Shown: positions 7,801 through 53,000 of the stretch, one piece after another
Layout: each line of letters opens with the position of its first letter
Numbering within the stretch: the stretch's first letter is position 1
Source of the DNA: Branchiostoma floridae
Lineage: Eukaryota; Chordata; Leptocardii; Amphioxiformes; Branchiostomatidae
DNA: 64,000 nt
NCBI RefSeq assembly: GCF_000003815.2
Contig: NC_049980.1
Location: 32,300,044-32,364,043 of the forward strand
Direction of reading: 5' to 3'
Notes under the pieces: generated by a model
Databases searched by the model: none
The model's input: the letters and a program-made list of their open reading frames with translations, nothing else
Told to the model about the DNA's origin: nothing
Made by a program: the position numbers and the translations under genes

Positions 7801-10342
7801 AGATACAGCACATGGTGCTGCTGGCAGGAGGGTAAGTCATTTATAATTACATCATCATCATCATCGGTCGACGTGATCACACATGTTCGCACATATTTAC
7901 ACACGACGGGGTTATACCGCCCCTTACGGGGTGACATACCCTTTCGCTGGCTGATTACAAGACGGGGATGCGCCAGGTCTCCCGTCTCCCGTCCGGGTGA
8001 ATGATGTAAATCACCATGTGGCTGATACAAGATAGAGATTCGCTGGACCTCAAACTTAATGTCTCTAATCGAATAAAACTAGTTGTTTCACCTCTGTCAC
8101 ATGAGGAAACCAGGTGTAAATTCACAAAATCAATTTGAGTTAGAAATTTGAACCCAGAAACTTTAAATTCTAAGTCAACATTAACCCTAGCCACAGAACA
8201 ACCTTGCCACCTTGAAGAGAGTAATCAGTGAGTAGAAACTGATGGTCATGTGTTTCTACTCATTGAGTCAGTGTACTGGATATACATAACAAACAAAGTC
8301 TGCCCTTCTGTAGGTCATTCCTGGCCACCTGTTCTGCTGATGGGACCATCAGGCTGTGGGGGTCACCTGGGGTCACCGCCCTGAAGGCAGAGGAGACACC
8401 AGAGGAACAGAAGCCCAGATACTCCAGGCAGATCGATAGGTTCATGGGAATCAGGTAATGTCATGACAAGTGAACTTTGTTTTTCTGTAGTTTTACATTT
8501 TTTCACTAACATTTTAACCTTTAAACTTTTGGCTTGGCCTGTACATGTCTGTGCGTGTGTGTGTCTGTTGGTCTGTCTGTGAGTCTGTTGTATGCTGGTC
8601 TAAGAGGTCTTCCTTATGAATGAAAGGACCTAGTGTTATGAATGTGAGACAATTACCCTGTATTTTGACACATGAATGACGTAGACAGGCAAAAAAAGGA
8701 ATGCCATGGAATACCAATTATTTTCACGTTTCAAATACAGAGCACACAAATTGTGTAACCTGGTAATTGATGTACTGGTATAAGCCTAATATCTTCTGCC
8801 TACAGTCCGAGGAAAGAAGACACGAAAGGGAAGAGCAAGAGCATGGAGCAGCTGCAGTTCCAACCTGCTCTGCTAGGGGAGCTGCTAGGTCATGCTGGCA
8901 CTGTGCAGGTGTGTTAACAACTTTCTTTTTGGGCAGATCATGTGTCAAAAATGGAATGATCATTTTTACTTTAAATCTTTGAAGCTGGTAGGGAGGAAGG
9001 AAAATGAAAACTAACAGAAGAACAAAATAATGCATCTATTCTTGGCCTAAAATTTGAAGTATCAAGTTTCTGGATCTTTTCAAAGAAACATTTTGAATAA
9101 GTAAATACATTTTTCAAGTATGTACACTTTGTAACTACACATTACCAATGACATACTTAATTCATTTTTGAGGAATATTCTACATTTCTCTGAAATACCG
9201 TAGACATGTTTGTTATTATACGATAGTTGCACTGAACATACTTACCCGGTATGTAACGTTTCACAGGGGCTTACTCATGTTCCTACCTAATATGTTCATA
9301 CCTAGATGTTCTAGGCTTGATGTTCTAGGCACTGAGTGTGGGAGGCACAGAAAACTAAGTAAGATGGCACCCAGGATACGTATTCAGTTTATATTTACGT
9401 GAAGTTAAATGGAAATATTGGCAAGACAAGACAAATCAGTTGTGGCCGTTTTTGTTGTGTACCAGATGTTGCTGGACTGTGGAGGGGATGGGCTGGCATC
9501 CTGTGGCACCGATGGACTGGTCATTCTGTGGAAGGTTGGTTTGTTTTATTCAGATGTCCATTAGTGTATACATGAATTCTGCAACACTATTCTTCCTGGA
9601 GTCCATTTACATGTAAGTTACAAATAATGAAATTTAAAACTTCTACAACAATGCAGAGGATAAAATGAAACGAACATTAAGGAACAATACTGTAACAGAA
9701 ATTAAACATAATCTGGGTTGGTGTCCTGTTGGACTGGTAATTATTTACTGTGGAAGGTTGGTTTGGTTACTCTCCTTACTGGTGAACTGTCACAGCAATA
9801 ATAGTAGTAACGTATCTCTGTCCTTGGTGCTGACAAGCCATCACGCAATTGCTTTTTTGCAGTGCACATCATGAATGCATGAACTTATCATGTAAGCCTT
9901 CAGAACGATATATATAACTCCACACCTCCAAATGTAATCATACATATTCTCTCCAGTACATGGGACTGTACCTTGCCATCACCCAAGGGACAGTAACAGG
10001 ATTTACATATCAGTGATTTACATACGCTGATTACAAGTATTGTGACATAAAAAAGACAAGTGATGGAAACATCCAGACTCTGATAATCTCTGCATGTATC
10101 TTCCCCAGTTCTAGACATTTTGAATTGTCTACAAAGATTGCGTACTTGGATGTCTACACCCAAAATAGTCGAGTATGTTGTTAAACATAATCGAGACCTT
10201 GTACTTATAAGGATTAATGTATAAAAAGTCATCCTTTTCTTTTTCTGGGTAACTAATGCAGTTATGTTTCCAGGACGGTGCAGCCCAGTCGGAGCGTAGG
10301 AACGAGTTCATCAGAGAGATGCTTCAACTTGGGGCCAGCTGA
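4819..10342 (+). CDS. WDR41: WDR41, WD40-repeat protein (5'-truncated by the assembly gap)
   Basis: Ten exons (4819-4888, 5146-5254, 5770-5835, 6277-6390, 7016-7176, 7707-7831, 8314-8454, 8806-8908, 9466-9534, 10274-10342) have GT/AG borders and matching phases. They encode about 341 residues to the stop TGA, matching human WDR41 (459 residues) from roughly residue 115 on. Blade motifs include GGHDLSLW, GSLDGTIVLW, ATCSADGTIRLW and CGTDGLVILWK, and the C-terminal tail after the last blade has the WDR41 spacing. WDR41 is known as the third subunit of the C9orf72-SMCR8 complex and recruits it to lysosomes; I infer the same role here. The first exons, including the start, are not visible. Its 3' end faces PDE8 tail to tail. 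Confidence 0.95.
5146..5254 (+). CDS. WDR41: WDR41 exon
   Basis: Starts CMVELRHGMW and carries the blade motif SGGHDLSLW. The donor AAA|GTGAGT is in phase 1. It joins in frame to the previous exon at V-K|C, which matches human WDR41. Confidence 0.9.
5515..5605 (+). repeat. Retroelement 3' tail fragment (CTGACGAAGGTGACAG type)
   Basis: The motif is 'ctgaCGAAGGTGACAG ... AAACGTTGGAACATGG'. Related copies lie at about 17130-17260, 17645-17735 and 29035-29260. Such tails are common at the 3' ends of Penelope-like and similar retroelements; this class assignment is inference. Confidence 0.45.
5770..5835 (+). CDS. WDR41: WDR41 exon
   Basis: Reads DISLVLSIPNEKLVAVSDKTL between TTCCAG and A|GTAAGT (phase 1 on both sides). 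It corresponds to the short strand segment before the IFRL region of human WDR41. Confidence 0.9.
6277..6390 (+). CDS. WDR41: WDR41 exon
   Basis: Reads VFKVTSPMETGGTYQLEEYG through SLVNVS, the conserved helical linker between blades in WDR41. Acceptor ATGCAG, donor G|GTCAGT, phases 1 and 1. Confidence 0.9.
7016..7176 (+). CDS. WDR41: WDR41 exon
   Basis: Holds the blade motif FATGSLDGTIVLW and a linker ending VPVEE. The donor GAG|GTGAGG is followed within ten bases by a long TG tract. Confidence 0.93.
7183..7310 (+). repeat. TG-rich microsatellite beside a WDR41 donor site
   Basis: About 130 bp of TGTG with occasional T or A interruptions, starting just inside the intron after the donor at 7177. 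Confidence 0.9.
7707..7831 (+). CDS. WDR41: WDR41 exon
   Basis: Reads RYLFAAIGAGFWLYDVVTGK through MVLLAG, one full blade. Acceptor GTTCCAG, donor GG|GTAAGT (phase 2). Confidence 0.95.
8314..8454 (+). CDS. WDR41: WDR41 exon
   Basis: Reads SFLATCSADGTIRLWGSPG and then a charged loop (RYSRQIDRFMGI). Acceptor CTGTAG, donor AG|GTAATG (phase 2). The loop corresponds to the variable insert of human WDR41. Confidence 0.95.
8806..8908 (+). CDS. WDR41: WDR41 exon
   Basis: Lys/Ser-rich loop (KEDTKGKSKSMEQ) followed by LGELLGHAGTVQ, the start of the last blade. Donor CAG|GTGTGT, phase 0. Confidence 0.93.
9466..9534 (+). CDS. WDR41: WDR41 exon (last blade)
   Basis: Reads MLLDCGGDGLASCGTDGLVI and LWK, with donor AAG|GTTGGT. 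It matches the human blade that ends LIILWK. A decayed copy of its 3' end and donor lies downstream at about 9717-9765. Confidence 0.95.
9717..9765 (+). repeat. Decayed duplicate of a WDR41 exon end plus its donor
   Basis: GTGTCCTGTTGGACTGGTAA followed by TTACTGTGGAAGGTTGGTTTG repeats, with substitutions, the last 30 bases of the exon at 9466-9534 and its donor GAAGGTTGGTTTG, about 220 bp downstream. Confidence 0.75.
10274..10342 (+). CDS. WDR41: WDR41 terminal exon
   Basis: Reads DGAAQSERRNEFIREMLQLG-AS and stop. Acceptor TTTCCAG, phase 0. It matches the position and character of the human C-terminus after LWK. Confidence 0.92.
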   Translation, partial: DGAAQSERRNEFIREMLQLGAS

Positions 10343-10375
10343 ACACTTTCATCCAAACACGCATGTGGCAGCAAA

Positions 10376-10775
10376 TCTCCAAATCACAATTACCAGGCAG
10401 CAGAGGTTGTGGTAGACAAAGGAAATCTTGGAGTGTGTTTAACTATAAGGACATTGATGTGTGCAACCTCCTGGGTTCATACTGGCAAGGTGCAGGTGGC
10501 ATGGACGCCTTGAACAAGCCAGTGGCTTCATCAACACTCACTATCCATTGTTTGACTATGCTGCTGCTGGGATCCCTGATGCAGGGGTAGGCAGCAGTCG
10601 GCTAACACCATCTCCAAATCAGTTACCAGGCAGCAGAGGTCGTGGTAGACAAAGGAAATTTTGGAAGGATGTGTTAGGAAGGACAAATTGTATGTATGTA
10701 GCCTTGCCAGTGTGACCCTGCTGGACAGAGCCACTTGGAAGCGCGGTGTGAAGACCGTGTCAGGGACCCACGCAG
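10376..10775 (+). repeat. Two LINE-like reverse-transcriptase tail fragments in the WDR41 3' flank
   Basis: Two direct copies (about 10376-10435 and 10612-10775) encode GSRG(C/R)GRQRK(S/F)W. The second continues towards LLDRATWKRGVKT. This basic RGRxRKxW motif followed by a W-R pattern is typical of the C-terminal end of non-LTR retroelement ORFs. A third copy is at about 19830-19945. All are broken. Confidence 0.55.
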
Positions 10776-11208
10776 CAGTATAATCAAATACTGGGTACCA
10801 CTATCTACTATACTGGGTACTATACTATACTTAACTATGTGGTGGCATGGTGGTTAGGGCCATCATTTTGCTAAGAGCCTAGGGCTAAATGAACATTCCA
10901 AACAGTGCAGACACACTTTCTACTCTCCAAGCAGATCTTTCAGGTGGCAAGACAGTATCCACAGGCAAAAACAGGTTGCCATTGGTTGGTCCTGCAGTTA
11001 TCATGCTTCTTTGTACATTATGTCAGTGTGAAAAATTTTCTAAGGGGTCCTTATGTATAGAGGTGATCACTTGATTGTATGTAATTTCTATAAAATATTT
11101 CATGTTTTGTACTTCTTGTGAAAAAAACTCTAACATCAGGCCTGTTTCTATTTCCTGATTTGTCCACCTGATTAGTCCTTTGTTTACTGCGGTCGTAAGT
11201 TTCATGTG

Positions 11209-11382
11209 CAGTAGAAGCCAATTAATTGCACAACGGATTAACACACACTTCTGTTAACTGCACGGAATCCTAAAATCCCAAACCGGTGCGGTCCAGCTGG
11301 ATAACTTCGCATTATTGCACCAGCCTGATAATTGCACGAAATACGCTGGCAAATAAACTGTGCAATTCAACGGCTTCTACTG
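11209..11382. mobile_element. pogo/Tigger-like MITE
   Basis: Terminal inverted repeats CAGTAGAAGCCAATTAATTG and its complement at 11360-11382 enclose repeated 'ATTGCAC/AACTGCAC' motifs. About 174 bp, with no coding capacity. Confidence 0.7.
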
Positions 11383-13769: not shown

Positions 13770-13925
13770 AGCAGGCTGCGATTGATGGTTGATAGTAGCT
13801 TATGAAGTTTTTTGTGTATTTTCCGACGGCTGACGACCGTCACTCAACGTCAGACTGCAATAGATGGGTGATGATTGGTTATGGAGGTTTTTCGAATTTT
13901 CCACGGCGGTTACTCGACGTCCTCG
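13770..13925 (-). repeat. 75-bp duplication spanning the PDE8 stop codon
   Basis: 13852-13925 contains the end of the coding sequence, the stop and the first 3'UTR bases. 13770-13852 is a diverged copy of it (shared pattern GACGT(C/T)GAGT-A...GGAAAAT...AAAAAACTTCATAA). It shows that the junction-duplication habit also affects the CDS/3'UTR border. Confidence 0.65.
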
Positions 13926-14031
13926 AGGCGTGTGACACTCTCGCCGCGCCGCTCTGCCTCCTCTGCCTGCTGCTTCCAGTACTTGTAGTTCCTGGTGAGG
14001 TGCGTGATCAGGGACGGGGTGTCCACAAACG
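13910..14031 (-). CDS. PDE8: PDE8 exon 25 (terminal)
   Basis: Completes Ala after DAWD and reads [18 protein letters not shown], then [21 protein letters not shown] and stop TAA (13910-13912). It is the last helix of the catalytic domain plus a charged tail. Six further copies of this exon lie upstream. Confidence 0.88.
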
Positions 14032-17000
14032 CTGCGGGGATGATTAAAGAATTAATGATTAACGAGTGATATGATTAACGAGTTAACGAGGCCTCTTCTG
14101 CCTGCTGTTTCCAGTACTTGTAGTTCCTGGTGAGGTGAGTGATCAGGGACGGGGTGTCCACAAACGCTGCGGGGATGATTAAAGAATTATATGATTAACG
14201 AGTTATATGATTAACGAGGCTTCCTCTGCCTGCTGTTTCCTGTAGTTCCTGGTGAGGTGGGTGATCAGGGACGGGGTGTCGACGAATGCTGCAGGGATGA
14301 TTAAAGAGTTATATGATTAACGAGTTATAATATGATTAATGAGTTAACGAGGCCTCCTCCGCCTGCTGTTTCCAGTACTTGTAGTTCCTGGTGAGGTGGG
14401 TGATCAGGGACGGGGTGTCCACAAACGCTGTGGGGATGATTAAAGAATTATATGATTAACGAGTTATATGATTAACGAGTTATATGATTAACTAGTTAAC
14501 GAGGCCTCCTCTGCCTGCTGCTTCCAGTACTTGTAGTTCCTGGTGAGGTGCGTGATCAGGGACGGGGTGTCCACAAACGCTGCAGGGATGATTAAAGAAT
14601 TATATGATTAACTAGTTTTATGATTAACAAGTTATATGATTAACTAGTTAACGAGGCCTCCTCTGCCTGCTGCTTCCAGTACTTGTAGTTCCTGGTGAGG
14701 TGCGTGATCAGGGACGGGGTGTCCACAAACCCTGTGGGGATGATTAAAGAGTTATGTGATTAACGAGTTTTATGATTAACGAGTTAACGAGGCTTTCTCT
14801 GCCTGCTTTTTCCAGTACTTGTAGTTCCTGGTGAGGTGGGTGATCAGGGACGGGGTGTCCACAAACACTGTGGGAAGGATTAAAGAGTTAAGTAACGTGT
14901 TATATGATTAATGAGTTGTGTGATTAATGCTGCACCTCCTCCATCTGCATGACATACCTACAGAAAGTTTGCACACTATGGACAAGAACTAGAACTAGAT
15001 CTCGAACTAGAACTAGAATGTATGCAGTACAGTCAAATACTGGATACTACTGCTACCACTACAACTACTACTAACTCACCGTCCCAAGCATCGAACATGT
15101 CTGTGAGGAAGTAGTCGATGAAGGATATCTGAGACTTGGGGATGCTGCAAGAGGCTCTGTCGAACACCGGCATGACCACGGGGAGGCCACGGTCCTTCTC
15201 CTCATCAGTCTGTACGGGACAGAAGGTCACAGGTCAGACATAGGTCATAGTTCAGACATGGAAGGTCACAGGTCAGACATAGAAGGTCACAGATTAGACA
15301 TAGAAGGTCACAGGTCAGACAGAAGGTCACAGGTCAGACATAGGTCATAGGTCAGGCATGGAAGGTCACAGGTCAGACATAAAAGGTCACAGGTCAGACA
15401 TAGAAGGTCACGTCAGTTGTTTCTAGGATCTGAAGTCTCATGCAGAAAAAGAAGCGTGATAGATAAAAGGCGGCATGCAGGCCCGATTTGAGCTTTCATG
15501 AATAAACAAAGGCTCAAACAAACTGATCCTGACTGTCCACCACAATTAGCAGAGCAATGAGATTGTGTGCCCTTGGGAAAGGCACTTTACATGACTTCAC
15601 AATTCAGCCCCTGGCTGCGAAGAGAAAGTGGTCGGCTCACAAAATAACAGCAATGATAAAGAAATTTTATTGCAAGTTCTTGCCTGAGGGCTAATTGCAA
15701 GTGACAAAAAGTGACAGACAAACAGTGGTAAACAGTATACATTAGTAAGCGACTAACTCAAGTGATAAATTTGACTAAACTAAACAAAGCAAAAAACTTA
15801 GCCATTGGGTTTGACTTCTTTTTCGTAGACAGTGGAAGATGAAAGATCCCACCTTTTCGATAATGTGTGGGTTTTGTGATGTAGTTTTTTTTTGGTCTGT
15901 AAATGTACATTGGGAGATAAGGTGATAAGGTTGGGCTTTGGTGGACTCTTGATGACCCTACCTGCTGGCAGTACTCTTCAGCAATCCTCTTGGCCCACTC
16001 CACGCACAGGTCCAGGGGTCGGGCCGGGTTAGCGATGTCGGCACACTTGATCAGCATGCGGGTGATCAGCGTCCGGTTCTCAAGGGTTCGCAGAGTGTCG
16101 TGCTCCGGTGTGGCCACGCCGCCGCTGTGCTGTGGGGGGAAGATTGACAGGTGTCAGTCAAATGATTAATCTTATTTTCGGATTCTCCTGTTGAACAGAT
16201 GAGCAGGCAAATAGTCCCTTGCCGGTGGGTTCGGCGACCTGTTTGCCTGACCTGCACATAACTTTTTGATTAAAAACGCGCCATGGCTGTAGCCCCTAAT
16301 TAAGTACTCCAAGAAGTAGATAAATAGAATTCACCTGTCTTTAAGTGGAATTGAAGGGATGCATCTGCTGGGGCCATCTCACATGTGGGACTATGAGCAG
16401 CAGTAGACGAGAGCCGTAAAAAGACCTTAAAAGGTCTTTAAATTTAAGATCTTAAAATTTAAGGTCTTTTTACGGCTACAGCCATGGCGCGTTGATACAC
16501 CCAATCCCTTGATCTTGGAAGTTAAGCAACGTGTAGTCGGGTCAGGAAGAGTATGGAAGCTAAACACTCTACACTACCAGTGGACTAGCCTCCTGATGTA
16601 GTGCTTGCTCAGTGTGGCTTAGTGCTTTAAAGCAGAGATGGGTGCCAGGCCCGATACATCGTCTGATCAGGGGGGTTGACCCCCTTGTTCTGATGTATGG
16701 GCAACTTAAGTTTTTGGAGTACTAACCGAGGAGAGGCGGTCTTCCTCGACCCGCGCAGAGGCACCCATCTTGGAGATGCTGTTGGCAAATTTGGACAGGT
16801 GCTCGAAGTGCCGCGTCATCTCGGTGGCCAGGATCATGTCGATGATCTGCTGTCGGAGCATGCGGTAATCATCCCTGGGGAAAGTAAAAAGTAGACTCCG
16901 TGAATATACTGTAAATGCAGAAATGCTCGCGGTGGATGAATGTTCGCAGTTTTCGCGGTGACCACTTCACCGCGAACTTAAAACCACCGCGAACATTTTT

Positions 17001-20000
17001 CTATTATTGTATTAGACTGCAGTCTATGGTGTTACCGCGAAATTAAATCCACCTTTTACCCGCTACCGCAAAATTAAATCCCCGCAAACTTAAATGCATT
17101 TACAGTAATAGTTCCATCAGGCTGGTACGGCACTGACTCTTTCTACACAAACAACCATTGCTTTATTCTCACCGATGTTTTGGTGACCGTCTGTCTGCAC
17201 AGGTGCTACTGCACACAGTTCGCGTATACTTCACGTATTGTGACCACATCTCAACTGTGAGCAGCGCAGGGCTCTAGCCAGCGTCCGTTTTTCAGTCAAT
17301 TGACGGAAATTTGCTGCGTGTGACGGAAAATTTTTAAAACCAATCCGTCAACCTTGACGGACAAATATCCTTGGTGGAAGCTACAGGCGGCTTGGGAACG
17401 CCGTCCACGGCCGCAAAAGCCACACCCTGTTTGTTTTGCTATAATTGTTATTATTGTTGACGAAGTGTGTCGGCGCCCTTTCGCATACGATTATCCATTA
17501 AAACCCGTTTTTCAAGGTCTCAGTTCAGTCTTTCGTGACAATGGGAGTTCAGGTTTTCGCGACAGTGGGAATTGGCTGACGGAAAAAAAATTCGAGCTGG
17601 CTAGAGCCCTGGAGCAGCGACACCTGTCCTGCAGTACAATGTGAACCAGTCAGAATTGCTCTGAAGAAGGTGACAGGCGGTTACCAAAACGATGGTGAGA
17701 ATATAGCAATGGTTGTGTAAAAAAAGAGTTTCGTTGTTCAAGAAATAGTACACTTCCTTGTGAAAAGGCAAAAGCGACCTCGAACCAGTTTAAGCTGAAT
17801 GAACTCAATGATTCAGAAGCCAAATTGTTCTCTCTATGCTCTAATTTTTGGGCTAGCTAGCTGTGCACATGCCTCAAAAATAACGAACCCTACCTGGACA
17901 AGAAAGTAAAAAATCAAACATAGCCAAAAAAAAGCAGAGGCACAGCACAGACGTACCTGCTAAGATTCTTAAAGATGTTGCAGCGGTCGTCTCGCCAGGT
18001 GAGCTGGAAGGTCAGGGCGGAATGGTGGCTCTCCAACACAGCCCTGTGGACAAATGTGAAAACTGGGTAAACTTTGTGTTTTACATCTGGTTCAATTAAT
18101 CAATCAATATCCAAAGTCTATTTCAATGGGAATACCCTGTCAGCCTAGCCTTGGCCACTCTTCCCAGATGCTCTGGTATGGGAGGTGGTGGGTGTGGGTG
18201 GACAAGGTAAACTTTTTGTTTGAATAAATAACTTGTTACAAAAACCATGCAAAATGGTTATGTTTAAATTTGTTTTACATCAGGTTCAGTCAATATCGGC
18301 TAAAGAGCTACTCATTCAAAGCAACTGGATATGACTTTGGAAATGGTCAGATGTTTCAAGTAGCAACCACTACCTAGTAACGCTGAGGAAAGGTCCAAAA
18401 TCATATCCATTTGCTTGAGTATGTATTATCTGGTGTATCTGCCTCTGGATATGGTAAGCAGTCACGTGGTTGTGTGGGGTCCATATGACTAACTAAAATA
18501 GTTGACAGATCAACAATCATATAACAATACAGAGGATGACAAATGAAAGTAGGGTAATAGGTGACTGTCATGACTGTATTTGCCAATTCAATTCAGGCGT
18601 TTTAGCCTCCAAAGTGGTGTAATAAGTAAAGTTGAAAGTCCTATACGAGAATGACAGTCCAGGCCACATAGGGCACATCTGTAGGCTGACTCAGGTCTGT
18701 TGCAGAGTTCTATCAGGGTAATATCAGCTGGTTAAGAGGGTGACATCTGTACTCACACGTCGTTGTAGAGGATGGCGAGTTCGCTGCCTGCGTTACACAG
18801 GAAGGAGTTGGTCCTACCGGGGTGGTCCACATCGTGGGACACGGCCGCCAGCAGTGCCGCCACCTTGTTCATGTTGTCCAGGATGCCCTGTGCGGGGAGA
18901 TAGTTCACATTATTGACCAAAGTCAAGATTATTTCCACACCACCATCTCTATTTCTTTAGCCCTTGGGCCTAACAGCATTGTTTCAGGGCCAAACACCAT
19001 TGTACTCTGGACTGCCACCTTGTTCATGTTATCCAGGATGCCCTGCGCAGGGAGATACATGTAGTTCACATTAATCAAAATTAGGTTAAGGTTATTTCCA
19101 CACCATTTGTGGTGTGGCACCCATCTCCAATTTTTTAGCCCTTGGGCCAAACACCATTATGATTGTACTCTGGGCTGCCACCTTGTTCATGTTGTCCAGG
19201 ATACCCTGTGCAGGGAGATAGGTCACATTATTAACCAAAAGTCAAGATTATTTTCACACCATTTGTGGTGAAGCATCCATCTCCATTTCTTTAGCCCTTG
19301 GGCTGCCACCTTGTTCATGTTGTCCAGGATGCCCTGCGCAGGGAGATAGTTTACATCAGTCAAGGGTCCATGGTGTGTATGGCGGCGCCCATCTCCAATT
19401 TTTTTAGCCCTTGGGCCACACAATTTTGTGCAATCACTACAGCAGGAGGCTAGTCCACTGGTAGTGCTATGTGTTCAACTACTCTTTCCCATACGCTAAG
19501 TGCTAAGCAGGGAAAGCAGTTTTGGAACTGTGCACTTAATTTTTGACTGAAGATGCACCTGGCAAGTGTACATGGCAAGTACACAGCCCTACACAACCCT
19601 TTAAGTATACATTGTATACTTAAAAGGTACGTACACTTGTCAAGTACACAATATATACTGTTGACATTTAAGTGCCAGAAAAAGTGATATTACATTGCTG
19701 TATTCCCTGTTCAAAATTTAAAGGTTTACTAACAGAATTTCAGATTTAAGTTCTGAGGAGAGACAGTTACATGTAGGTTAACAATTAGGTTTTGCTGAAT
19801 CAACACCATCACCTATTGTTGGTTGCCATGCATGCAACAGAGGTCAGGTAGACCAAGGAAATCTTGGATTGAGTGCAATAAGGACAACACAATGTGGACC
19901 CGCTGGGCAGATATGCTTGGAAACGGGGTGTAAAGACCAGAAGGCTGCTAATCTGTAACAAACAGCTCGGAAGACGTACCGATATCCTGTCCTTGTCGAG

Positions 20001-23000
20001 GAAGTACGCCGTGGCGTGTATTTTGCACACAGTTGTGTGGCCCGAGGGCCTTAATTAGGAGATAGTTGCTACCGTGTGGTGCGGGAAGGATTGACTGGAC
20101 TAACATACAGCTCAGAAGACTTACCGATATCCTGTCCTTGTCGAGGAAGTATGCCGTGGCATGCAGCACGTCGGCCGCGTGGGTGGAGTTGTGGTAGGCG
20201 TTGATCTGGTGGTAGTTCCACTCTAATGGTAGGGTCACTGAGCTAACTTTAACTATAACAAACAGCTGAGAAGACTTACCGATATCCTGTCCTTGTCCAG
20301 GAAGTATGCTGTAGCGTGCAGCACGTCGGCCGCGTGTGTGGAGTTGTGGTAGGCGTTGATCTGGTGATAGTTCCGCTCTAATGGTAGGGTCACTAAGCTA
20401 ACTTTAACTATAACTATAACATACAGCTAAGAAGACTTACCGATATCCTGTCCTTGTCGAGGAAGTACAATGTATGCTGTAGCGTGCAGCACGTCGGCCG
20501 CGTGTGTGGAGTTGTGGTAGGCATTGATCTGGTGATAGTTCCGCTCTAATGGTAGGGTCACTAAGCTAACTTTAACTATAACATACAACAGAAGACGTAC
20601 CGATATCCTGTCCTTGTCGAGGAAGTATGCTGTGGCGTGCAGCACGTCGGCTGCGTGTGTGGAGTTGTGGTAGGCGTTGATCTGGTGGTAGTTCCTCTCC
20701 ACCAGCTGCAGCCAGAGTCTCAGCGTCACCTCCGAGCAGTTCAGCACCTCGCACACGCCGAACCGCGAGAAGATCTTCATACCCAGGTACAGCAGTGGCC
20801 TAAGGGGAGAAGAGACATTGACATGATACAACTGTAAATGCATTTAAGTTTGCGGGGATTTGATTTTGCAGTAGTGGGAAAAAGGACCTTTCGCAGTGGT
20901 TATAAGCTTGCGGTAAATCTGGTAGTTCTACACATTGGTAATGTTAGTTTGCTTGTCAATGAGTTTCTCAGTGATCGTCCGTGTTTCAGAGGCAAACTTG
21001 AAACGCAGATTACTAGTAAGAGTATGTGGGAAACGACAACCTGAAGCAGAGCAATGCTTACCGGCGAAGTCAATCCATTGAGAGAGATCAGTAGAGTATG
21101 TGGGGAAGGACTACCTCAAGCCGACAGCCTGAATAAAAGTTTAAAACTTGAACTATGCCGCTCCAGATGTCTTTCTCTGAGGGACAACTGCAGTGTGTAG
21201 GATGTTGGTAGCTGGAGGGATTAAACTACTGTACTATATACTTGACACACAGATTACCTTTTGTTGGTGACTCTCTCCAGCTCGATGATGTCGAAGTCCC
21301 ACTGCGGCTCCTTGTCCAGGATGGCCTGCACGTCGGGCGGGATGTCCGGCAGGTGGGAGTGGGGGCTGCTGGGAACAAACTGGGGCACTGCAGCGGCACA
21401 CCAAGGGCAAGACAAGGTCAAAGTCAATGTCAAACTATACAGACCATGAAAGTTCATCTGCTTTCACTTGGTAAAAGTAAAAATAAATTGCACTACAGAA
21501 AAACAAATAACCAAACAGGTGGTCTTCATGTATCTCCTTTTACTCACGTACATTTGCAAATTTTCAGAAGAGGAGATAAAGGGTTAGGTTGTAAGTAAGT
21601 AAGTTTCTTTTGATGCAAGTAACCTTTGGCTCAATGTTTTTTGAACAGTGTTGGTTATGAAAAGTTACAAGCATACAAAAAATGACTCCATTCAAGGCCC
21701 TTACAACACTTACAGACATTCTTGGATAGCGCGATGTCTGACGAGTATCTTCTTCGGCTCCCAGACTGTGATAAAGATAAGAAAAAAATAATTCAAGACA
21801 ATCATGATAAAAATTTGTCTTTTTGCTTAAAACCAGACTGGATTTAAGAACAGATTGAAAAAAGTACATAAAACACTGTTTTCCAGTTTAGGATATTATT
21901 TTCTTTAATCCGAGAACCAACAGATCAAATTGATGTGACTTAAACAGGTTCTACAAAAAAATTTAAGAAATCTCCATGGCAACAGCAACAACGATCTCAA
22001 ACTCACGGTCATCAGCCCCTCCACCAGGTCAGAGGTCACGGGGTCGTTGTCCTTGGGCGTGGCGGTGAGCTGCGGGGAGTAGAGCTCGGCGGAGCGAAGG
22101 ATCTCCAGCACCTTGTCCAATGCCTGCACCACGTTGATGGGGCAGTTTTCCTGAGCAGCGTTGATGATGTTGATCACCTGTGAAAAAAGTGTAAGAGAGA
22201 AGAATTCATAGTTATATCATACCTGGGCTGTATTTACGTTCAATATCGGTGATATACTGACTGATCTGTGTTCTGACCAATCCGTATTTGACAGTGCGGC
22301 CCAGACCTCCATACTTTGATTCAAATGATTGGAACTCACTTGCGTGCACCACTGTTGAAAATTCAAACAGCTGTTCAACCGTTTGCCCAAATTGATGTTT
22401 ACGTGATGTGCATTGACTCATCACGTTTTTTGCTCTTCTTACGATAAACTTGAGTTTCCTCGGGTTGGCATTATATATAGATAAGATACAACACTGGGTA
22501 TTCCATATAGCCCTCGGTCCCAGCCCTCCTTCAGGCGATCCAATGATGAACTTTATTGCACGACATTTGTACATGGTACAATGTATGGCAATGACTATTA
22601 CACAAAGTACAAAATAGGTCTATACACACAATAAGACTTAATATCCTAATTAACATAACAAGAAGGGCTAATACAAGTCTTTGATAAAGTGTTACAATCG
22701 AGTTGGGCTAATCATGAGTTTCATTATTCTTTCTAATAGCAAAGCAGTCTTTGATATATTTGCCTATCTTTACATTATGGGAGTCGTGGCATCCAAAGAT
22801 ATATGCAAATCTGTCTGTAGCATCGAATCTCTTGAAATCTGCTGTATTGGATTCGAGAAATGTGAATAGCTCATTACGTAAAATAGTGTATCTAGAACAT
22901 GTGAACAGGTGGAAGCATTACTTACCTTGGTGATCGGTGCTTCTATGGTCATGGCATGTATCCTGGCTATGGAATCTCTCCTTCTGCCTCCGGCACCTGA

Positions 23001-35000: not shown

Positions 35001-38000
35001 AATTTAAGTGGTGCACCCAAAAATTTTTTGGTGCACCCAATTTGTTAAGCTGGGTGCACCAGTGCACCTAATCCCCAAAATGAATTCCGTGCCCTGATGT
35101 TGATTTCAGTTTTTCATTTTCATCTATTTCAGATTTTACGGACATGATGGGTGAAATTTCTGTCCGTCCCAACTAGCAGACTTCCATCCCAGGATGGAAA
35201 GATTATGATTATAATATTAGACAATCTTTTTATAACTAACTACATTCAAACCTGTATTAGGGGCCACCTCTACAGAGGGGCCACCTGTCCATAGTGGCCA
35301 CTTTTTGTCAGTCCCTTGGGTATTTTATCTACAAGTTTCCACCTCTATACAGAGGCCACCTGTCTATAGTGGCCAAATTTGTCCGGTCCCTTGAGTGGCC
35401 GCTATAGACAGGTTTGACTGTACCTAATCTGTCTTTACTTCAATGTTGAACTATAAGTATGAGACTGAATCTTTTATCTACATGACATATCTGCTTAAGT
35501 TGACTTCTCAAGTCAAGATGTCAGAACTTGCAAGGCATTTTTTCTAAGAGACATACTTAACTTTGAGGTATATGGAGTATACTAAAGTAAGCTTCTCAAT
35601 TCTGGGTTTTGCTCCCTTAGATGTGAAACAAACAATCATGTCCTCACTTTAACTTGTTCCTGGCACTAATACGTAAAATAAGTGAGACCATTACTTTGGA
35701 GTATATGTTGCACAATATAGTCTGGGTCACAATTTTGCCCTGCACTATATGACGGACTTATATAAAACAAGTGAGAACTTCACGTGAGGCTATATTCAAT
35801 AGAGTATTAGCAAGCTTCTCAATTTTAAGTTTTGCTCCCTTAAATGTGAATCAAACAATCATGACTGTCCTCACTTTAACTTGTTTCTGGCGCGGACTTC
35901 ACAGTGGTCCAGCATCAGCAGCTCATTCATACAGGCACCCAGGTTGGTGCTCTCTGTGTAGCGCTGAAGAAAACAGGAACAGAGAAGTTAGTTAAAGACT
36001 ATCGTTCATACAGGCACCCAAGTTGGTGCTCTCTGTGTAGCGCTGGAGAAAACAGGAACAGAGAAGTTAGTTAAAGACTATCGTTCATACAGGCACCCAG
36101 GTTGGTGCTCTCTGTGTAGCGCTGGAGAAAACACAGAGGAACAGAGAAGTTAGATAAAGACTATCGTTCATACAGGCACCCAGGTTGGTGCTCTCTGTGT
36201 AGCGCTGGAGAAAACACTCAGGAACAGAGAAGTTAGTTAAAGACTATCGTCCATGCAGGCACCCAGGTTGGTGCTCTCTGTGTAGCGCTGGAGAAAACAC
36301 AGAAGAACAGAGAAATTAGTTAAAGACTATCGTTCATACAGGCACCCAGGTTGGTGCTCTCTGTGTAGCGCTGGAGAAAACACTCAGGAACAGAGAAGTT
36401 AGTTAAAGACTATCGTCCATGCAGGCACCCAGGTTGGTACTCTCTGTGTAGCGCTGGAGAAAACAGGAACAGAGAGAAGTTAGTTAAAGACTATCGTTCG
36501 TACAGGCACCCAGGTTGGTGCTCTCTGTGTAGCGCTAGAGAAAACAGGAACAGAGAAGTTAGTTAAAGACTATCGTTCATACAGAAGTTAGTTAAAGACT
36601 ATCGTCCATACAGGCACCCAGGTTGGTGCTCTCTGTGTAGCGCTACAGAAAACAGGAACAGAGAAGTTAGTTAAAGACTATCGTCCATACAGGCACCCAG
36701 GTTGGTGCTCTCTGTGTAGCGCTAGAGAAAACAGGAACAGAGAAGTTAGTTAAAGACTATCGTTCATACAGAAGTTAGTTAAAGACTATCGTTCGTACAG
36801 GCACCCAGGTTGGTGCTCTCTGTGTAGCGCTACAGAAAACAGGAACAGAGAAGTTAGTTAAAGACTATCGTCCATACAGGAACCCAGGTTGGTGCTCTCT
36901 GTGTAGCGCTACAGAAAACAGGAACAGAGAAGTTAGTTAAAGACTATCGTTCATACAGGCACCCAGGTTGGTGCTCTCTGTGTAGCGCTACAGAAAACAG
37001 GAACAGTGAGAAATTAGTTAAAGACTATCGTTCATACAGGAACCCAGGTTGGTGCTCTCTGTGTAGCGCTGGAGAAAACAGGAACAGAGAAATTAGTTAA
37101 AGACAATCATTCATACAGGCACCCAAGTTGGTGCTCTCTGTGTAGCGCTGGAGAAAACAGGAACAGAGAAGTTAGTTAAAGACTATCGTTCATACAGGCA
37201 CCCAGGTTGGTGCTCTCTGTGTAGCGCTACAGAAAACACAGAGGAACAGAGAAGTTAGTTAAAGACTATCGTTCATACAGGCACCCAGGTTGGTGCTCTC
37301 TGTGTAGCGCTGGAGAAAACAGGAACAGAGAAGTTAGTTAAAGACTATCGTTCATACAGGCACCCAGGTTGGTGCTCTCTGTGTAGCGCTACAGAAAACA
37401 CAGAGGAACAGAGAAGTTAGTTAAAGACTATCGTTCATACAGGCACCCAGGTTGGTGCTCTCTGTGTAGCACTGGAGAAAACAGGAACAGAGAAGTTAGT
37501 TAAAGACTATCGTTCATACAGGCACCCAGGTTGGTGCTCTCTGTGTAGCGCTACAGAAAACAGGAACAGAGAAGTTAGTTAAAGACTATCGTTCATACAG
37601 GCACCCAGGTTGGTGCTCTCTGTGTAGCGCTGGAGAAAACACAGAGGAACAGAGAAGTTAGTTAAAGACTATCGTTCATACAGGCACCCAGGTTGGTGCT
37701 CTCTGTGTAGCGCTGGAGAAAACACACAGGAACAGAGAAGTTAGTTAAAGACTATCGTTCATACAGGCACCCAGGTTGGTGCTCTCTGTGTAGCGCTACA
37801 GAAAACAGGAACAGAGAAGTTAGTTAAAGACTATCGTTCATACAGGCACCCAGGTTGGTGCTCTCTGTGTAGCGCTGGAGAAAACACAGAGGAACAGAGA
37901 AGTTAGTTAAAGACTATCGTTCATACAGGCACCCAGGTTGGTGCTCTCTGTGTAGCGCTGGAGAAAACACACAGGAACAGAGAAGTTAGTTAAAGACTAT

Positions 38001-41000
38001 CGTTCATACAGGCACCCAGGTTGGTGCTCTCTGTGTAGCGCTACAGAAAACAGGAACAGAGAAGTTAGTTAAAGACTATCGTTCATACAGGCACCCAGGT
38101 TGGTGCTCTCTGTGTAGCGCTGAAGAACATCAAAGGGAAATGGAGAAATTAGCAAAATGTCCAGACAATATGCACAATGAACAAAATAATGAAATAAAAA
38201 TGAATGCCCCAGCTCAGGCCCACAGGAATCTGAGAACTTTTTGAAACCCTAAGCTTGCAGTAATACAGGAAATATTACACACAGAGATGTTGAGCCAGTA
38301 TATATGTCACAGTAGAGATCACGATCCAGTAGAATTGCGATCGGGATCTGCCCTAGGACAAACTCTGATCCAAACTCAAATGATATAAATTATGATATGA
38401 TATTATGTACACTTAATAGCTATACATCTCAAAGTATTTACATGTTGCAGATAGCAGCCATCACCTATACTCTTGAGTCAATTTGGTTTGAAGTCTTTTG
38501 AACCACCTGTATCTACCTTAAATTTTATTTTAAATTATAGGATTGCACTTACCCTGTTAAAGCCAGCATTCAGTAGGGGCAGAATGCTCGGCTCTTCTTT
38601 CTCATTGGGTCTGTGGACATAAATCATTTCAAGTTGACCAAGAAACTCAAGAAAAACAAGAAGTCTTTAAAGGATCAACAGTACTAGTAATTCTTCAAAC
38701 TCAGTCAATTCAATGTTTTGGTCAATCATTAGTTGATTGCCTGTAGTGACCTGACACTACAGTGAACATGGTAACCACTTCATATTTCTCACATACTGGT
38801 ACATGTAGATGCATGTGGTAATGGAAAGATAGTGATTTTTGTTTACATATTAATTAGAAAACATTGTAATTTGTTGTCATATGGTCATTGCAATTTGTTG
38901 TCATATGGTCGTTAGAAATAAAAGTATTCGGAACACTGGGCCGAAAACCAGCCATACAAAAGGAAGGCCGTGACTCTGCAGCAAGTGCCTGCAGTATGGC
39001 GAAAAGGTTGCCACTGCCTGTGGGACCTGGAGAATCTCTTAGGGAACATGATTAGACATTGTAATTTGGTGTCATACATGTACATGGTCTTTAAAATTAG
39101 TATTTTGAACACTGGGCTGACAACCAGCCATACAAAAGGAAGGAGACTCTGCATCCAGATCCTTGCTTCAGGGACCAATTTGGTGCCAATGTGTGGATGA
39201 TACTCAGATTCAGATATTTGTTATTGTAATTTCATGTCAAATGGTCTTTAAAAATTGAGGCATTTTAAACATTGGGCCAAAAATCCAGCCATGCGAAAAC
39301 TAGACAACTTTGCAGCAAGTGGCTGCAGTATGGTGAAAAGGTTGCCACTGCCTGGGGACCTGGAGAATCTCTTAGGAAACCTGCCCAAAACCAGATTGCA
39401 TAACGTTTCCCAGACAGGCCTGACCCAGGTTCAAGGTTGTCACGCAGGCAGTGCTGTCACAACTGGGAGCAGGCAAGGTCTCTACTAGACTGGATCCCAG
39501 GCTGTTTTGAGGGCCTGAACAGTTTACTTCCTCAACTCCAGGGCCAACATGCCGCCAAGGAAATCTTACTACAGTCCAATTCCAATTAGATTCTGAGTCA
39601 GACTGTTTCTAAGGCCTATATACACAGGCCAACTTCTGGGCTCTAGGGACAACATGCCCCCATGGAATTTTCATTACAGACCTCTCTTGAGCCAGACTGT
39701 TTCCAGGGCCTACACAGACCAGCTCCTCTCCCAAGGTAGTTTTTCCACAGCTCCCCTCATGTTGTTCAGGAATAATTAAGGGAGGGTTGTGGTCAAACTT
39801 CCTTAATTTGGGGAGCATGTTGGTCCTAGAGCCAAGGAGCCGGCCTGTGTAGACCCTGGAATTCTAACTCAGAGGGGACTGTAATAAAATGTAACTGGGG
39901 GCATGCTGGCCCTAGAGCCGAGGAGCTGGCCTATGTTGGTCCAGGCTGGGAACAGTCTAGCTCCGATGCAGAGTTTAACTCAGGGGGCTATAGCAAGATT
40001 TCCTTGGGGCATGTTGGCTCTGGAGCCAAGGAACTGTTTCCAGGGAACAGTCTGGGTTCAAGTCTAAGTCTTCCCTGCTCTGACTTTGAGTAGAGTTTGC
40101 AAACATGTGGAAAACAGCACACGTACAAGTCATGGATATTACATAAACAGCAGTCCGCAAGACTTCTCAGTGGAGTATACGTTGGGTTGATTGTAAAGCT
40201 TAATAGGCAACAGGTTTTGCTTGGTATCAATGTTACATGGAGCCTTTGGAAAACATTCAATGAGTTCAGTGGTTCAACAGGTATTCTGTTTCCATTTACT
40301 ACTTACTGTGTAGTACATTTAAGAAGGTTATCCATCCAGGTAAACAATACTTGAAGGCAAATCAAACTCTATGTGATGAAGGTTAGACATCCTGGTAATG
40401 AAATAGCCCAAAAGTTGTTACTCATATCAAGCAACTGGATATGATTTGGGAAACAGTCAGGCAATTAAGTAGCATCCACTAGTTTAAACTAGCATCCAAA
40501 ACTAGTGGATGCTAGACTAATTCAAAACGTCTGATCTTTTCCAAAATCATATCCAGTTGCTTGAGTAACTGCTTTTTGGCCAAATCAATCTCTACAAAAC
40601 ATCTTTGGATAAAATTCTGAGATTTACTTCCAGACACTTCCAGTGACATCCATCACTCTTTAAGAATGAACTGGCAGTCTAAATGTACAATATTACAAGT
40701 TTAAGTTAAAAGACAGATCATTATGTGAAACTCACGACTTTCTGGTCACTGCGACGACTACTGCATGCTCACAGGACTTTATTGCACGAATTGATCTGTA
40801 ATGAGAGATAATTACACCATAATTAGTACATGACTGCATGTTGTAAGGTACTGCATTCATCATTTAGGATGGTAATGCAATGTCACTGGCCATGGCGTTA
40901 AACCCCTACACATAAAAGAACCCTACTACACACTTTTCTAAAAGAGTACGGCTAAAAATGCATTAACCAAAGTGAAGCTGCATGGTATTAGTAACAGTAC

Positions 41001-47000: not shown

Positions 47001-50000
47001 GGATAGCGTATTCCCCTGAAGTAGCAGCTTTGCGCGCATGAAGCGCACGAACCCTGAAAGTTAGGGACTTTGGCCTTGTTCAGGGGTTTCTTTTTGGAGG
47101 TCAGCTGCCCACCCTGGCACTGATAGCATATTATAGGGCTGAAACTCTGGCAGTTTAAGGGTTAAACAAAATTCTATGGGGAAATATGTTTCCCTCCGGA
47201 AAATAGTTTCATCAGGTTGGAAGAATAGAGGATACAGGAGAATGCTTTTTACACAACCAGCAGGTACTTACATTGTATGTATCACTAGAGTGTGTTTGGC
47301 CAGCCTAAAAAAATTACAAAAAAAAAAGATCCTACCCTACCTATCCTACCTATATTTTTCTGGACTGAAACAGGAAACACAGCTAGGCCTAATAGGACAG
47401 AATTTGTCAAATTTTAATTGAAGCTGTTGTCTTCAAAGACACCTGTGCACCATTGCAAAATACTGTTATGTAATTCGAGCCGAGAATGATATGTCTGAGT
47501 TACATGATATTGTTTTGTGCCAAAGAGAAGGCTTTTTGTCAGTCACTTTTCGGGTCTTGCTAAATTCTTGCTTCATATTAGCATCATTGGTAGGGTCATT
47601 GACCCAGAACCCAGAGGTCCTTGGTTCGAATCCCCTTACATGCCATCTTACAGGCCTTTTCTCACTCCACCCAGGTGTAAAAAATGGGTTCCTGACTTCG
47701 GGTTGGGAGGTAAAATGTGGTTGGGGGAGGGGGATGGGCTCTGCCTTCCAATGTCATGCCCTAGACACAACAAGCTACTGCCCCTACAGCCTCAAAAAGG
47801 CTATGGCACTACCTTTAGTTTTCATCTCTTATACACGTGACAATTAAGCAAAAAACAATGGTGTGTAATTCCATGTAAAATCATTCAGACCCTGACTCGC
47901 GATTGTCAACAAGAAAATTCACGAAGAACACCAGTCTGACATTATGTGGGCATTATAACCAAAGTCATGCATTTAGGCCGTTCTTTCCTTTTCGGTAAAA
48001 ATGGGTACCTGACTTCGGGTTGGGAGGTAAAATGTGGTGGGGGGGAGGGGGATGGGCTCTGCCTTCCAATGCCATGCCCTAGACACAGTTACTGTAGATA
48101 ACAAGCTACTGCCCCATTGTGCCTCCAAAAGGCTATGGCACTACCTTTTATAATTAGTTTCCATCTCTTATAAGTTATACGTGACAATTGAGCAAAAAAC
48201 AATGGTTTGTAATTCCATGTAAAATCATTCAGACCCTGACTCGCGATTGTCAACAAGAAAATTCATGAAGAGCACCAGTTGAGATTCTGTGGGCATACCA
48301 AAGTCATGTTTCCTTTTGGTAAAATGGGTACCTGACTTCGGGTTGGGAGGTAAAAGGTGGTGGGAGGAGAGGGATGGGCTTTGCCTTCCAGTAACGTGCC
48401 CTAGACACAACAAGCTACTGTCCCTACAGCCTCAAAAAGGCTATGGCACTACCTTTAGTTTTCATCTCTTATACGTGACAATTGAGCAAAAAACAATGGT
48501 GTGTAATTCCATGTAAAATCATTCAGACCCTGACTCGCGATTGTCAACAAGAAAATTCATGAAGAGCACCAGTTGAGATTCTGTGGGCATACCAAAGTCA
48601 TGTTTCCTTTTGGTAAAAATGGGTACCTGACTTCGGGTTGGGGAGGTAAAAGGTGGTGGGGGGAGAGGGATGGGCTTAACCTTCCAATGCCGTGCCCTAG
48701 ACACGTACAGTGGATAACAACCTGTGGCCCCTACAGCCTCCAAAAGGCTATGGCACTACCTTTAGTTTTCATCTCTTATATGTGACAATTGAGCAAAAAA
48801 CAATGGTGTGTAATTCCATGTAAAATCATTCAGACCCTGACTCGCGATAGTCAACAAGAAAATTCAGGATGAACATCAGTCTGACATTATGTGGGCATAC
48901 CAAAGGCATGCAAAGGCCGTTCTTTCCTTTTGGTAAGAATGGGTACCTGACTTCGGGTTGGGGAGGTAAAAGGTGGTGGGAGGAGAAGGATGGGTTTTCC
49001 CTTCCAGTACCATGCCCTAGACACAGTGGATAACAACCCACTGCCCCTATGGCCACAAAAAGGCTATAAGAGTATCTTTAGCTTTCATCCATTTTGTGAC
49101 CTTTTTCCAGTTATGGAGGCCATGTTGGATTCCCCGAGGTCATCTGGGATCATGCACCAAAATGAGGCTGAAGTTGGGTATTCTCCTATGTAGCATGTAT
49201 TGCTGACGTAAAGAAATCCAACATGGGGGCTGTAACTGGAAAGAGGTCTATTAGAGCAAATAAATGACGTAATAGTTTGCAATTCAATGAGGTAGAAATC
49301 ATTATTTCAAGACCCTGACTCACGATTGTCAACAAGAAATTTTCATGGATAGCACCAGTCTGACATTCTGTGGGCATACCAAAGTCATGCGAAGGTCGCC
49401 TTTTCCTATTGAAAAGAATATTCTGCGCTGTGTGGGAGTGCATCTCCATTCCAATTAGATTACAAGGTATTACTGTACACCGAATGTGGCCATGCATGAC
49501 AAACACACTTCTTGGAATAACGCCGGTAAAATAGAGATATAAAATTCATTTCATCAATCAGGAACATGCCATGAATGATAATCGTCACATATCGGGGCAG
49601 TCTCCAGGACCCGTCCCTCTGTTCAAGGATCAGGAAATTTGTTCCTTGGGAAGTAAAAAAAATCACCTGCTGCAGCGTGCAAAATAACCACTTGCACATT
49701 GCAACCACTTTTTGCTTGGTGCAACTTCAGCGTGCAAAATACCCACTTGCACACTTGCACATTGCAACCACTTTTTGCTTGGTGCAACTTACTTCTAAAC
49801 TCAGGTTGCACAGGGTGCAACTTAGATTTTGAGCCTCAGAACTCGATTTTGTTGTCAATTTATATTACTTGGAAGAAATAAATTGGCCGAGGCAGCTCCA
49901 TTTTATATCAGCCAAACATGTCAGTAATTGCTGATTCCTCAGCAGATGGACATTATCAGAAGAACAGAACAGCAGCAATCACGCATGCTTATAAGTAATA

Positions 50001-53000
50001 TGATAGTAAAAATTTATGTATCTATGTATGTATTGTACTTTTTTTTCAGAAATTCGTGAATTGCAGGTGGTGCAACTTGAACTTCAATTGTGCAACCTAG
50101 TTTTTGCGCCAGGTAGCACTAAAGTATTTTGTACACTGCCTGCTGTCAAAAATTTGATATTTGTGACATGAAATCAATAAAACTGTACTTTTGCAAGCTG
50201 GAAGAGATTATGATTATCATACGATCCCAACAATGAGTGGGATGGAATCAATACAGAGCTGGAGACAACGTATTAACGTTACATCCACAGGGCTAGACAA
50301 CCTTCCACAGACTCCATGGCCCTATTCAGCAAATGTATTAATCTCCAAGCAGATCCTACAATGGCATAAAATAGTACCAAACTGGCCAAGGAGTGTAGTC
50401 AGCCGAGAGGTGTCCATTAGCCATGTAGCCTAGCCCCGGTAGCCAAACACACTCCTAGGCCGACTTCACTCCTCTGCCAGCTTTTGATACTATCTTATGC
50501 TACCGTAGGATCTGTTTGGAGATTACAAATGTATGTCTGTATTGATCATTTCCTCCCGCCAGAACCAACTTTTCTGTGCCCAAAAATGTAGAAAACATAT
50601 TTCTATGCATTTTGGCCTGTAGTAGGAAAGAAATCATTTTCTCTTTCAGTAATAATAGAGCACTACAGTTTAAAACAATGTTTCAACTACAAGATACCAT
50701 GATATTTTTCTCCATCTGGAAATTTTGACAACTTAGTTATTATTCTCAAAATATTGTATCATTATCCTGGCTTCACAAGCCAAATGCTTGAGGTATTGTG
50801 TACATAAGAACAATGCTGTTCAAAAGACACGCAGCGTCACACATAAAAAAAAGGCACACGTGCAAAGATTGAGGAAATAATGTCCCAGGTACTGTGTACA
50901 TTGCAGCAAATAAGCAAACACACATTCATGTAATGGCCTAAACTACACAATAGTGGCTGGGCATACGATAGTGTTTCATGTCCAATTTCTTGACAGTATT
51001 TGTCTTGTAAAGAGAGAAATTCAATACTGTTCCATATGTTCATGAAAAAGAAACAAATGCATTTTAAAAATGATCTTGTATACTGATCACAATGCAAAGA
51101 GAGATATTCAATATAATTGTTCTATAATGTCCATCAAAAAGAGAAAAATAAAACAGTTGAAAAATCCTTATATTTGGCCTTATTTTGATTGAAAATCAGG
51201 ATAAAAATATAATTTCTTTGCCAAACTTCAGGCCTTGAGAAATGACACCATGATATGTTTTGATAGGTACGTGTATTGACTTAAGTTTCTGTTGCAATAG
51301 GATTGTTTCTATCAGGCCCCCTTTCAAGTACAAAGGAGGTACGCAATCTTCAATTTCATCCAGGGACTATCATAGAAAATGTAAAAGTGTGACTGAAAAG
51401 TCAGCAAAAATGACAAACCATTCGTTTTTTTCTACACAATTGGTTGAACGATCTGTCAAATTTTAGGTCGCAGAAAGAGCGCAGCAAGAGCGCCATCCTA
51501 GTGGTAAGGAGGGCATCAGCAATCTATTCGGTTAATTGAGGCATATTGACACACATTACACAATGCCAGTTCCACATTTTTAGCTGGTTGCTTATATATA
51601 ACATGCTCCCTATAACAGAACACATTTTGCATAACTCAGCAAAAATTATAATTGTTTTGTGATCTTAGAATTAAATGGACTCCAGGAAGGATAGATTTCG
51701 TGATTGTAAAGTCTAATGGAGATCAATATAAACAAACAAACAAACAAACAAACGTTGTCCTTGACCTACCCGAAGTGCTGGCTTCTTGACCTTCATCGGT
51801 CCCAGCATGTCTTCCGTCTGACTGGGCAGTCCAGTCTGCTCCTGGGGGAAGAAAACACCTGAAGTTCAGTTTTGAATAGACGTAGAGCTTCATCTAGAAC
51901 GTGTCTTGGCATAAAAAAACATTTTATTTGAAAACAACCCCATACCATCTGCTCCTGGGGAAGAAGACAACATGAGTTAAGTTTTGAACAGACATAGAGG
52001 TGACTAGGGGTGGGTACAGGTACAGTCCAGGTCCAGAGGATCACAAGTTTTCATAGACAATATATAAGGTCCAGGTTAAGGTCCAGACCTGGACCTTATT
52101 GTCTGTGAAAACTTGTGGACAATTATACTAAAAACAATGGACCATTTTATGCCCAAAAGTTAGTTACTCAAGCAACTGGATATGGTTTTGGAGAAGATCA
52201 TTTTGCTACAAAGTGGTCCATTCAAAATGGTCCATTTTGCTACAAAGGATTGTCTTCAGTGAAGAATCCGCTAGAGTACCGTTACCGACCCCTAGACTAG
52301 AGGTGACAGTTTTCCATCTAGAGGTTTGAAAGTGTCTGGGCATTAAAAAAAAAACATTTTATTTGAAAACAAAAGAGCCTGGCAAACCAATACCAAGCAA
52401 TAATGGTGGTAACTACGGAAATCATCTGATCTGCATGATATATGATATGATATAATAGATTACATAACTTTATTGAAAATTCGCAATGGGACCTGGCCTC
52501 AACTGAATTGAATTGAATTACAGACTTGCACTTAATCTGTTACGCACAATAATGAATGAATGAAGACCTTTATTGTACAATCATACCCACTGGGTTCAGT
52601 ACAGCTCACAAATAATGAAATAGTCATTTATTCCGGGGCTAAACTAAAGATATACCAAATTTCAATTCTTTTCTATCCATAGTTTCTGAAGCTAAATATG
52701 TTGCAAAACCATTGCAAATAATGTTATGCCCGTCCATCATCAAGACTCTAAACAGAACCTCCATTTTCACGGAGGTGATACAGGGCTCGAAATATTGGGT
52801 GCATGTGCACCCAGGTGCACCCAAAATTGGAGCTGTGCACCCAATTATTTTCTTTGGGTGCACAAGGTGCACTCAAATATTTTCTTAGGTTTATGTATGT
52901 AAAGATATCAAAGTATACTAGTATACAACATATTTTTGACATCTAAGTTAGAAAGATGATGGAAATGTCTGTTATGGTACTTGTTTAAGAATTTGATAGC

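Follow-up and report, generated by a model that had tools for sequence, protein, structure and literature searches.

The question raised by a 64,000-nucleotide stretch of the Branchiostoma floridae genome (the window, G000:C2:32300044-32364043 in the 513 Mb, 431-contig genome that was searched) is whether tandem duplications straddle exon-intron junctions more often than chance placement would allow. The window contains PDE8 on the minus strand and WDR41 on the plus strand, genes that adjoin tail to tail (5155-58425), as human PDE8B and WDR41 also do. PDE8 exons were mapped with tblastn using a human PDE8A sequence as the query; the gene begins with the ATG of exon 1 at 58325, and its stop codon ends at 13910. 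Joined at their outer junctions, the final eight of the exons located, from 21387 to 13910, produced an open frame encoding a 371-residue product that matched PDE8A structures with an E value of 4.6e-160. Since the exon preceding these eight is out of frame with them, one exon is absent from the list at that place, and between exon 10 and position 22996 the list has gaps too. The exons designated c1, c2 and c7 were equated by position with, and are presumably, exons 19, 20 and 25 of an earlier sequence-only reading of this DNA. Seven plus-strand exon pieces from approximately 5155 to 9534, with partly conjectural edges for the first and third, gave a joined protein matching WDR41 over residues 34-270 of 270 (E 4.5e-24).

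The sequence-only reading had reported junction copies at PDE8 exons 2, 6 (both sides), 8, 10, 19, 20 and 25 and at one WDR41 exon, and self-alignment or pairwise alignment recovered all of them except those at exons 8 and 10. The largest array is at the acceptor of PDE8 exon 6 (35963-35875), where TRF and self-BLAST delimited 35923-38157 on the minus strand containing a 79-83 bp unit in 27 copies (two of them 108 bp long), among them the functional one. The AG is kept in all 27 copies, a CTAAC-like motif and a pyrimidine tract recur, and the functional copy is the one adjoining the remainder of the exon. The donor of the same exon has an intronic copy at 35555-35664 (minus strand, source 35777-35891) detected by self-BLAST. 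The c1 exon (20799-20601) has a donor array at 19953-20699 on the minus strand, identified by TRF, tblastn and self-BLAST, in which a unit of approximately 99 nt of exon and 46 nt of intron is followed downstream by three partial copies. At c2 (18887-18757) TRF and self-BLAST revealed an acceptor array of a unit of approximately 155 bp at 18856-19429 on the same strand. The acceptor array of c7, the last coding exon, lies at 13956-14927 (minus strand; TRF, tblastn and self-BLAST) and comprises the functional exon 14031-13910 preceded by six partial copies visible to tblastn, with a unit of about 135-152 bp. The arrays at the exon 6, c2 and c7 acceptors and at the c1 donor were recovered both by TRF and by unsupervised self-alignment, and self-alignment also recovered the copies at the exon 6 donor and the exon 2 acceptor. 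The exon 2 acceptor region (51835-52372, minus strand; acceptor at 51841) has one clear copy at 51948-51999, in which exon accounts for just some 7 nt, as well as another duplicate in the intron, both from self-BLAST. The donor of the WDR41 exon 9466-9534 has a degenerate copy at approximately 9714-9768 (region 9466-9768, plus strand) which fell below the BLAST threshold and was found by alignment with a score of 25 compared with a maximum of 17 in 500 shuffles.

The two remaining exons are of a different kind. The unit assigned to exon 8 (29731-29791) is an intronic 61-bp duplication within 29586-29791 on the minus strand that by self-BLAST reaches just 3 nt into the exon, and it was not counted as straddling. 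The array assigned to exon 10 (26693-27222, minus strand; TRF and self-BLAST) lies entirely inside the coding exon 27569-26568 and consists of in-frame coding repeats, a 69-bp unit among others. The repeats of this 1-kb exon are rich in lysine and glutamate and keep the frame open; tandem duplication within an exon is tolerated here, in a region that is probably disordered. A copy also reported at the border of the PDE8 coding sequence and 3'UTR was present as a degenerate copy just downstream of the stop ending at 13910 (13784-13936, minus strand), with the same alignment score as the WDR41 donor copy, but that border is no splice junction. Further repeats were observed in the introns. Directly after the donor of PDE8 exon 7, the last exon base being 31846, an imperfect microsatellite occupies 31551-31846; it is approximately 295 bp long, reads (TG)n in the direction of the gene and is likely unstable, and the donor sits right at its margin. 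A dispersed 85-bp repeat (20831-20916) approximately 30 nt upstream of the c1 acceptor has at least 39 other genome copies that are 86-92% identical. A 21-bp minisatellite at 15218-15411 begins 9 nt from the c6 acceptor and forms the upstream intron sequence with no exon included, and long arrays with units of about 161-168 and 317 bp (32144-33291 and 47680-49419) are intronic and tied to no annotated exon.

Boundary-spanning repeats called mirages have been described in the amphioxus Adh3, globin (BflGb6, BflGb9) and TnC genes, and repeats in PGBD5 have been compared to them (PMC3087553, PMC3902484), bearing out the resemblance pointed out in the sequence-only reading. According to these two reports, mirages are tandem duplications of a 10-160 bp unit that span a boundary on the 5' or 3' side, many but not all copies carry AG or GT, and the arrays are homogenised with distinct edge copies. 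Length polymorphism, somatic instability and an unaffected normal mRNA are further traits ascribed to mirages. Minisatellite-like duplications spanning a boundary were found here in the window and in other genes, and the splice dinucleotide was retained in 12 of 16 straddling events by a copy-by-copy projection that is imprecise through gaps. Judged from their sequence, the window arrays are mirages, that is, tandem duplications mostly of 30-160 bp straddling one exon/intron boundary. The two reports treat mirages gene by gene, whereas the present analysis found several in a single gene and tested the event rate, against uniform and GC-matched placement, in other genes; a genome-wide or rate test of amphioxus boundary arrays was not found in the open-licence literature searched. 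The arrays are real and of a known kind, and the new element is a moderately strong indication that the junction rate exceeds chance.

It had been proposed as a rule that an intact exon stays at the edge while partial copies spread outward into the intron. The pattern is seen, although it is the geometry of any straddling duplication and not a rule. When a donor is straddled, the exon body remains attached to the first copy and the intron receives the second, and at an acceptor the attached copy is the last; thus, the pattern is uninformative on mechanism, and outward spread was rejected as evidence since every straddling tandem duplication gives the same outcome. Such a duplication always leaves a complete exon with the outermost junction and sends copies of the truncated exon and splice site into the intron, and the mRNA would be unchanged provided that splicing uses the outer, exon-defined junction. 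Splicing at the outer junctions is the presumed mode, and the open frame across the last eight PDE8 exons fits it. The sequence shows that some straddling duplications were later amplified and homogenised into minisatellites.

The rate was evaluated within the genic part of the window (5000-58400), which has 49 annotated junctions and 23 non-exonic duplication events. Five of these straddle a junction by at least 8 nt compared with 1.66 expected from the unit lengths (p 0.027). With wholly exonic placements excluded the expectation was 1.56 for uniform and 1.90 for GC-matched placement (p 0.044), and at a 4-nt margin six events straddle versus 1.72 expected. The test is post hoc, the window having been chosen after the arrays were noticed. 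Base coverage in the window showed no junction excess, with 6 of 49 junctions (12%) covered compared with 17-19% of intron positions, a lower figure that is the result of multi-copy intronic arrays inflating the intron value.

A sample outside the window was obtained from two gene families. Myosin exons were defined by Pfam myosin-head matches (142 places), and their boundaries were fixed with a splice-site matrix for which the window junctions were the training set. Eleven myosin regions, covering 84 kb and 44 HMM-defined exons with 82 of 88 possible junctions passing the score filter, yielded 17 events of which 8 straddle a junction compared with 0.90 expected; all eight were inspected by eye, wholly or partly, and are real. 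All eleven regions were picked from 20 listed before any repeats outside the window were viewed; the first five were retrieved before repeats were seen and the other six after repeats had been seen in other or overlapping loci. Straddling events were 6 of 13 in the first five regions and 2 of 4 in the later six. Another 15 merged myosin loci, totalling 55 kb with 74 of 86 possible junctions, contained two events, neither straddling, bringing the myosins to 8 of 19. The chaperonin sample, likewise with HMM-defined exons, consisted of 54 of 60 places (64.5 kb, 104 of 108 junctions), the six omitted being long-open-frame or single matches, and was not significant alone, with 2 of 13 events straddling versus 0.83 expected (p 0.20).

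Over the 260 junctions of the combined outside sample, straddling events numbered 10 of 32, whereas 1.87 were expected for uniform (p 2.7e-5) and 2.16 for GC-matched placement (p 8.8e-5); at a 4-nt margin the corresponding values were p 7.5e-5 and 1.9e-4. Counted by events in this small sample, straddling duplications are about four to five times commoner than uniform placement predicts. Four of the ten straddlers are from one myosin-head gene, the richest (L041, G000:C10:21152500-21162000), and without it the count was 6 of 25 versus 1.58 expected (p 0.006). Within 9.5 kb this gene has seven arrays of local duplication; its six annotated junctions account for four of them and an exon outside the HMM list probably for a fifth, and at the acceptor of its P-loop exon a 50-bp unit is present in 22 copies, among them the functional one. 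Two candidates were left uncounted. One is the array at L041 7471, which extends over the beginning of an exon that tblastn found and the HMM list lacks. The other, at L057 3300, would include just some 6 nt of exon with the acceptor placed at 3305, a position judged from the CCT7 sequence; the matrix picked 3288 instead. The event at L044 2841 resembles a whole-exon duplication and was retained as non-straddling; in this stretch (2841-3126) and in the matching L043 4398-4683, 37 codons of a myosin exon are present twice in tandem, in the manner of mutually exclusive exons. Within these two families, with the excess concentrated in the myosins, the results are a moderately strong indication that junctions are straddled more often than chance allows.

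An excess of surviving straddlers could in principle be produced by a neutral filter alone, in which duplications are born uniformly, exonic ones are purged, and straddlers remain recognisable longer because their functional half is conserved. The geometry of straddlers, which is splicing-neutral, and the chaperonin genes, which are near expectation, are both in accord with this explanation. When neutral decay of two-copy duplications was simulated and followed with the same detector, however, the detectable lifetime of straddlers was just 1.24 times that of intronic duplications, or 1.43 times if any detection counts, compared with an event-level excess of approximately 5-fold outside the window. 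Corrected for detectability, all ten outside events gave p values from 1.5e-4 to 4.7e-4 with the 1.24-fold factor and from 1.5e-4 to 1.4e-3 in all, and p was 0.027 with GC matching and the same correction when L041 was left out. The excess also remains among the most similar copies. With the best pair at least 90% identical, 7 of 13 events straddle versus 0.62 (uniform) or 0.82 (GC-matched) expected, although in two of the seven (L041 1609 and L049) similarity of at least 90% is confined to intronic copies; requiring the junction copies themselves to be at least 90% identical left 5 of 11 events straddling, and 6 of 17 at 85%.

The counts by base are more favourable to the neutral filter, since junction coverage is not above that of introns in the window and only modestly above that of decoys in the myosins. 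Myosin junctions were covered in 8 of 156 cases, and splice-like decoy sites were covered by non-junction events in 65 of 1935, 22 of 964 and 10 of 413 cases at scores of 3, 5 and 7, so that junction coverage was about 1.5 to 2.2 times that of decoys. Against decoys covered by any event (142 of 1935, 64 of 964 and 42 of 413 at the same scores) the myosin junctions were covered no more often. In the window, 5 of 49 junctions compare with 159 of 1751, 75 of 810 and 24 of 333 decoys covered by non-junction events at these scores, and 225 of 810 decoys with a score of 5 or more were covered by any event. Sliding the myosin junction positions 50-1500 nt into the intron gave 3-8 hits compared with 8 at zero shift. 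Base-level counts weigh copies and not events, and many of the hits are copies of junction arrays. Since the base-level tests show no clear excess, the excess depends on the counting of events, which is the modelling choice of the author. The link to splice junctions beyond chance that had been suggested is supported by events (10 of 32 versus approximately 2 expected outside the window) and not by covered bases, which show little or no excess; the genome-wide enrichment test proposed with it was run here on a small two-family sample. With the evidence on both sides, we consider a neutral filter alone to be unlikely, though a serious contender.

The event-level excess at junctions is also what would be anticipated if mutation were specific to the junction, as by R-loops, spliceosome- or lariat-linked breaks, or replication stalling at the exon edge. 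At a 6-nt margin with the window included, the affected junctions are nine donors and seven acceptors, and the straddling unit varies freely in composition, with 7-99 nt from the exon and 8-117 nt from the intron. The scattered breakpoints have no anchor at the splice signal, and the absence of a fixed breakpoint or of a donor or acceptor preference argues against a splice-signal-specific mechanism such as the R-loops suggested in the sequence-only reading, rendering this explanation improbable.

The arrays could instead be kept for a benefit, such as a supply of spare splice sites or of sequence on which gene conversion can draw, an explanation to which the AG in all 27 exon 6 copies and the recurrence of branch-like and pyrimidine motifs lend some appeal. 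However, turnover homogenises copies and is alone enough to preserve motifs, other copies such as that of WDR41 are degenerate, and read-through past a copy runs into stops in the frames examined. Searches of the read-through frames against the PDB gave no matches, and one further search gave only weak WD40 matches. Retention for a benefit is accordingly regarded as very improbable. Equally remote is an assembly artefact in which haplotypes sharing conserved exons were mis-joined. Amphioxus is highly polymorphic and the two-copy cases could originate in this way, but the arrays of 27 and 22 copies would be left unexplained and the only N run in the window (4417-4732) is distant from the arrays. 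Moreover, re-examination of Sanger data together with new Illumina data confirmed the similar repeats in PGBD5 (PMC3902484).

The explanation that we hold to be probable, with some reserve, is a bias of duplication towards exons and their immediate surroundings, combined with selection that retains those duplications which leave one intact junction. Births would favour exons or exon-adjacent sites, and wholly exonic duplications would mostly be removed by selection, leaving the straddlers as survivors. Non-straddling events within 60 bp of a junction were only mildly enriched (7 of 39 versus 3.6 expected), a weak hint of an exon-centred gradient that points to a birth bias no more than indirectly. 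Since one assembly was analysed, birth bias and survival bias are inseparable in these data. As a tentative extension, to which we give somewhat less than an even chance, exons and their edges may be mutational hotspots for tandem duplication of 30-160 bp, and a few per cent of junctions (10 of 260 sampled) may carry decoy copies.

Related duplications have been reported in other organisms. In a report on potato that concerns intron gain by tandem duplication, duplication of an intron-exon boundary likewise carries splice signals (PMC4974935), although here the copies lie within an existing intron, the PDE8 frame is kept and no new intron is proposed. Variable internal tandem repeats of human duplicated genes are also found at exon-intron boundaries, but there they occur in recent segmental duplications and are linked to altered splicing (PMC2812944), whereas the amphioxus genes are conserved and presumably spliced normally.

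Should the excess hold genome-wide, amphioxus would provide a natural test of exon recognition in the face of as many as 26 nearly identical decoy acceptors upstream of the real one, and also of the places at which new tandem duplications originate. A measurable supply rate would then be available for models in which introns and alternative exons derive from boundary duplications. If exons and their edges are indeed hotspots, duplication at them would continually supply the whole amphioxus genome with cryptic splice sites, shifted boundaries and new intron sequence.
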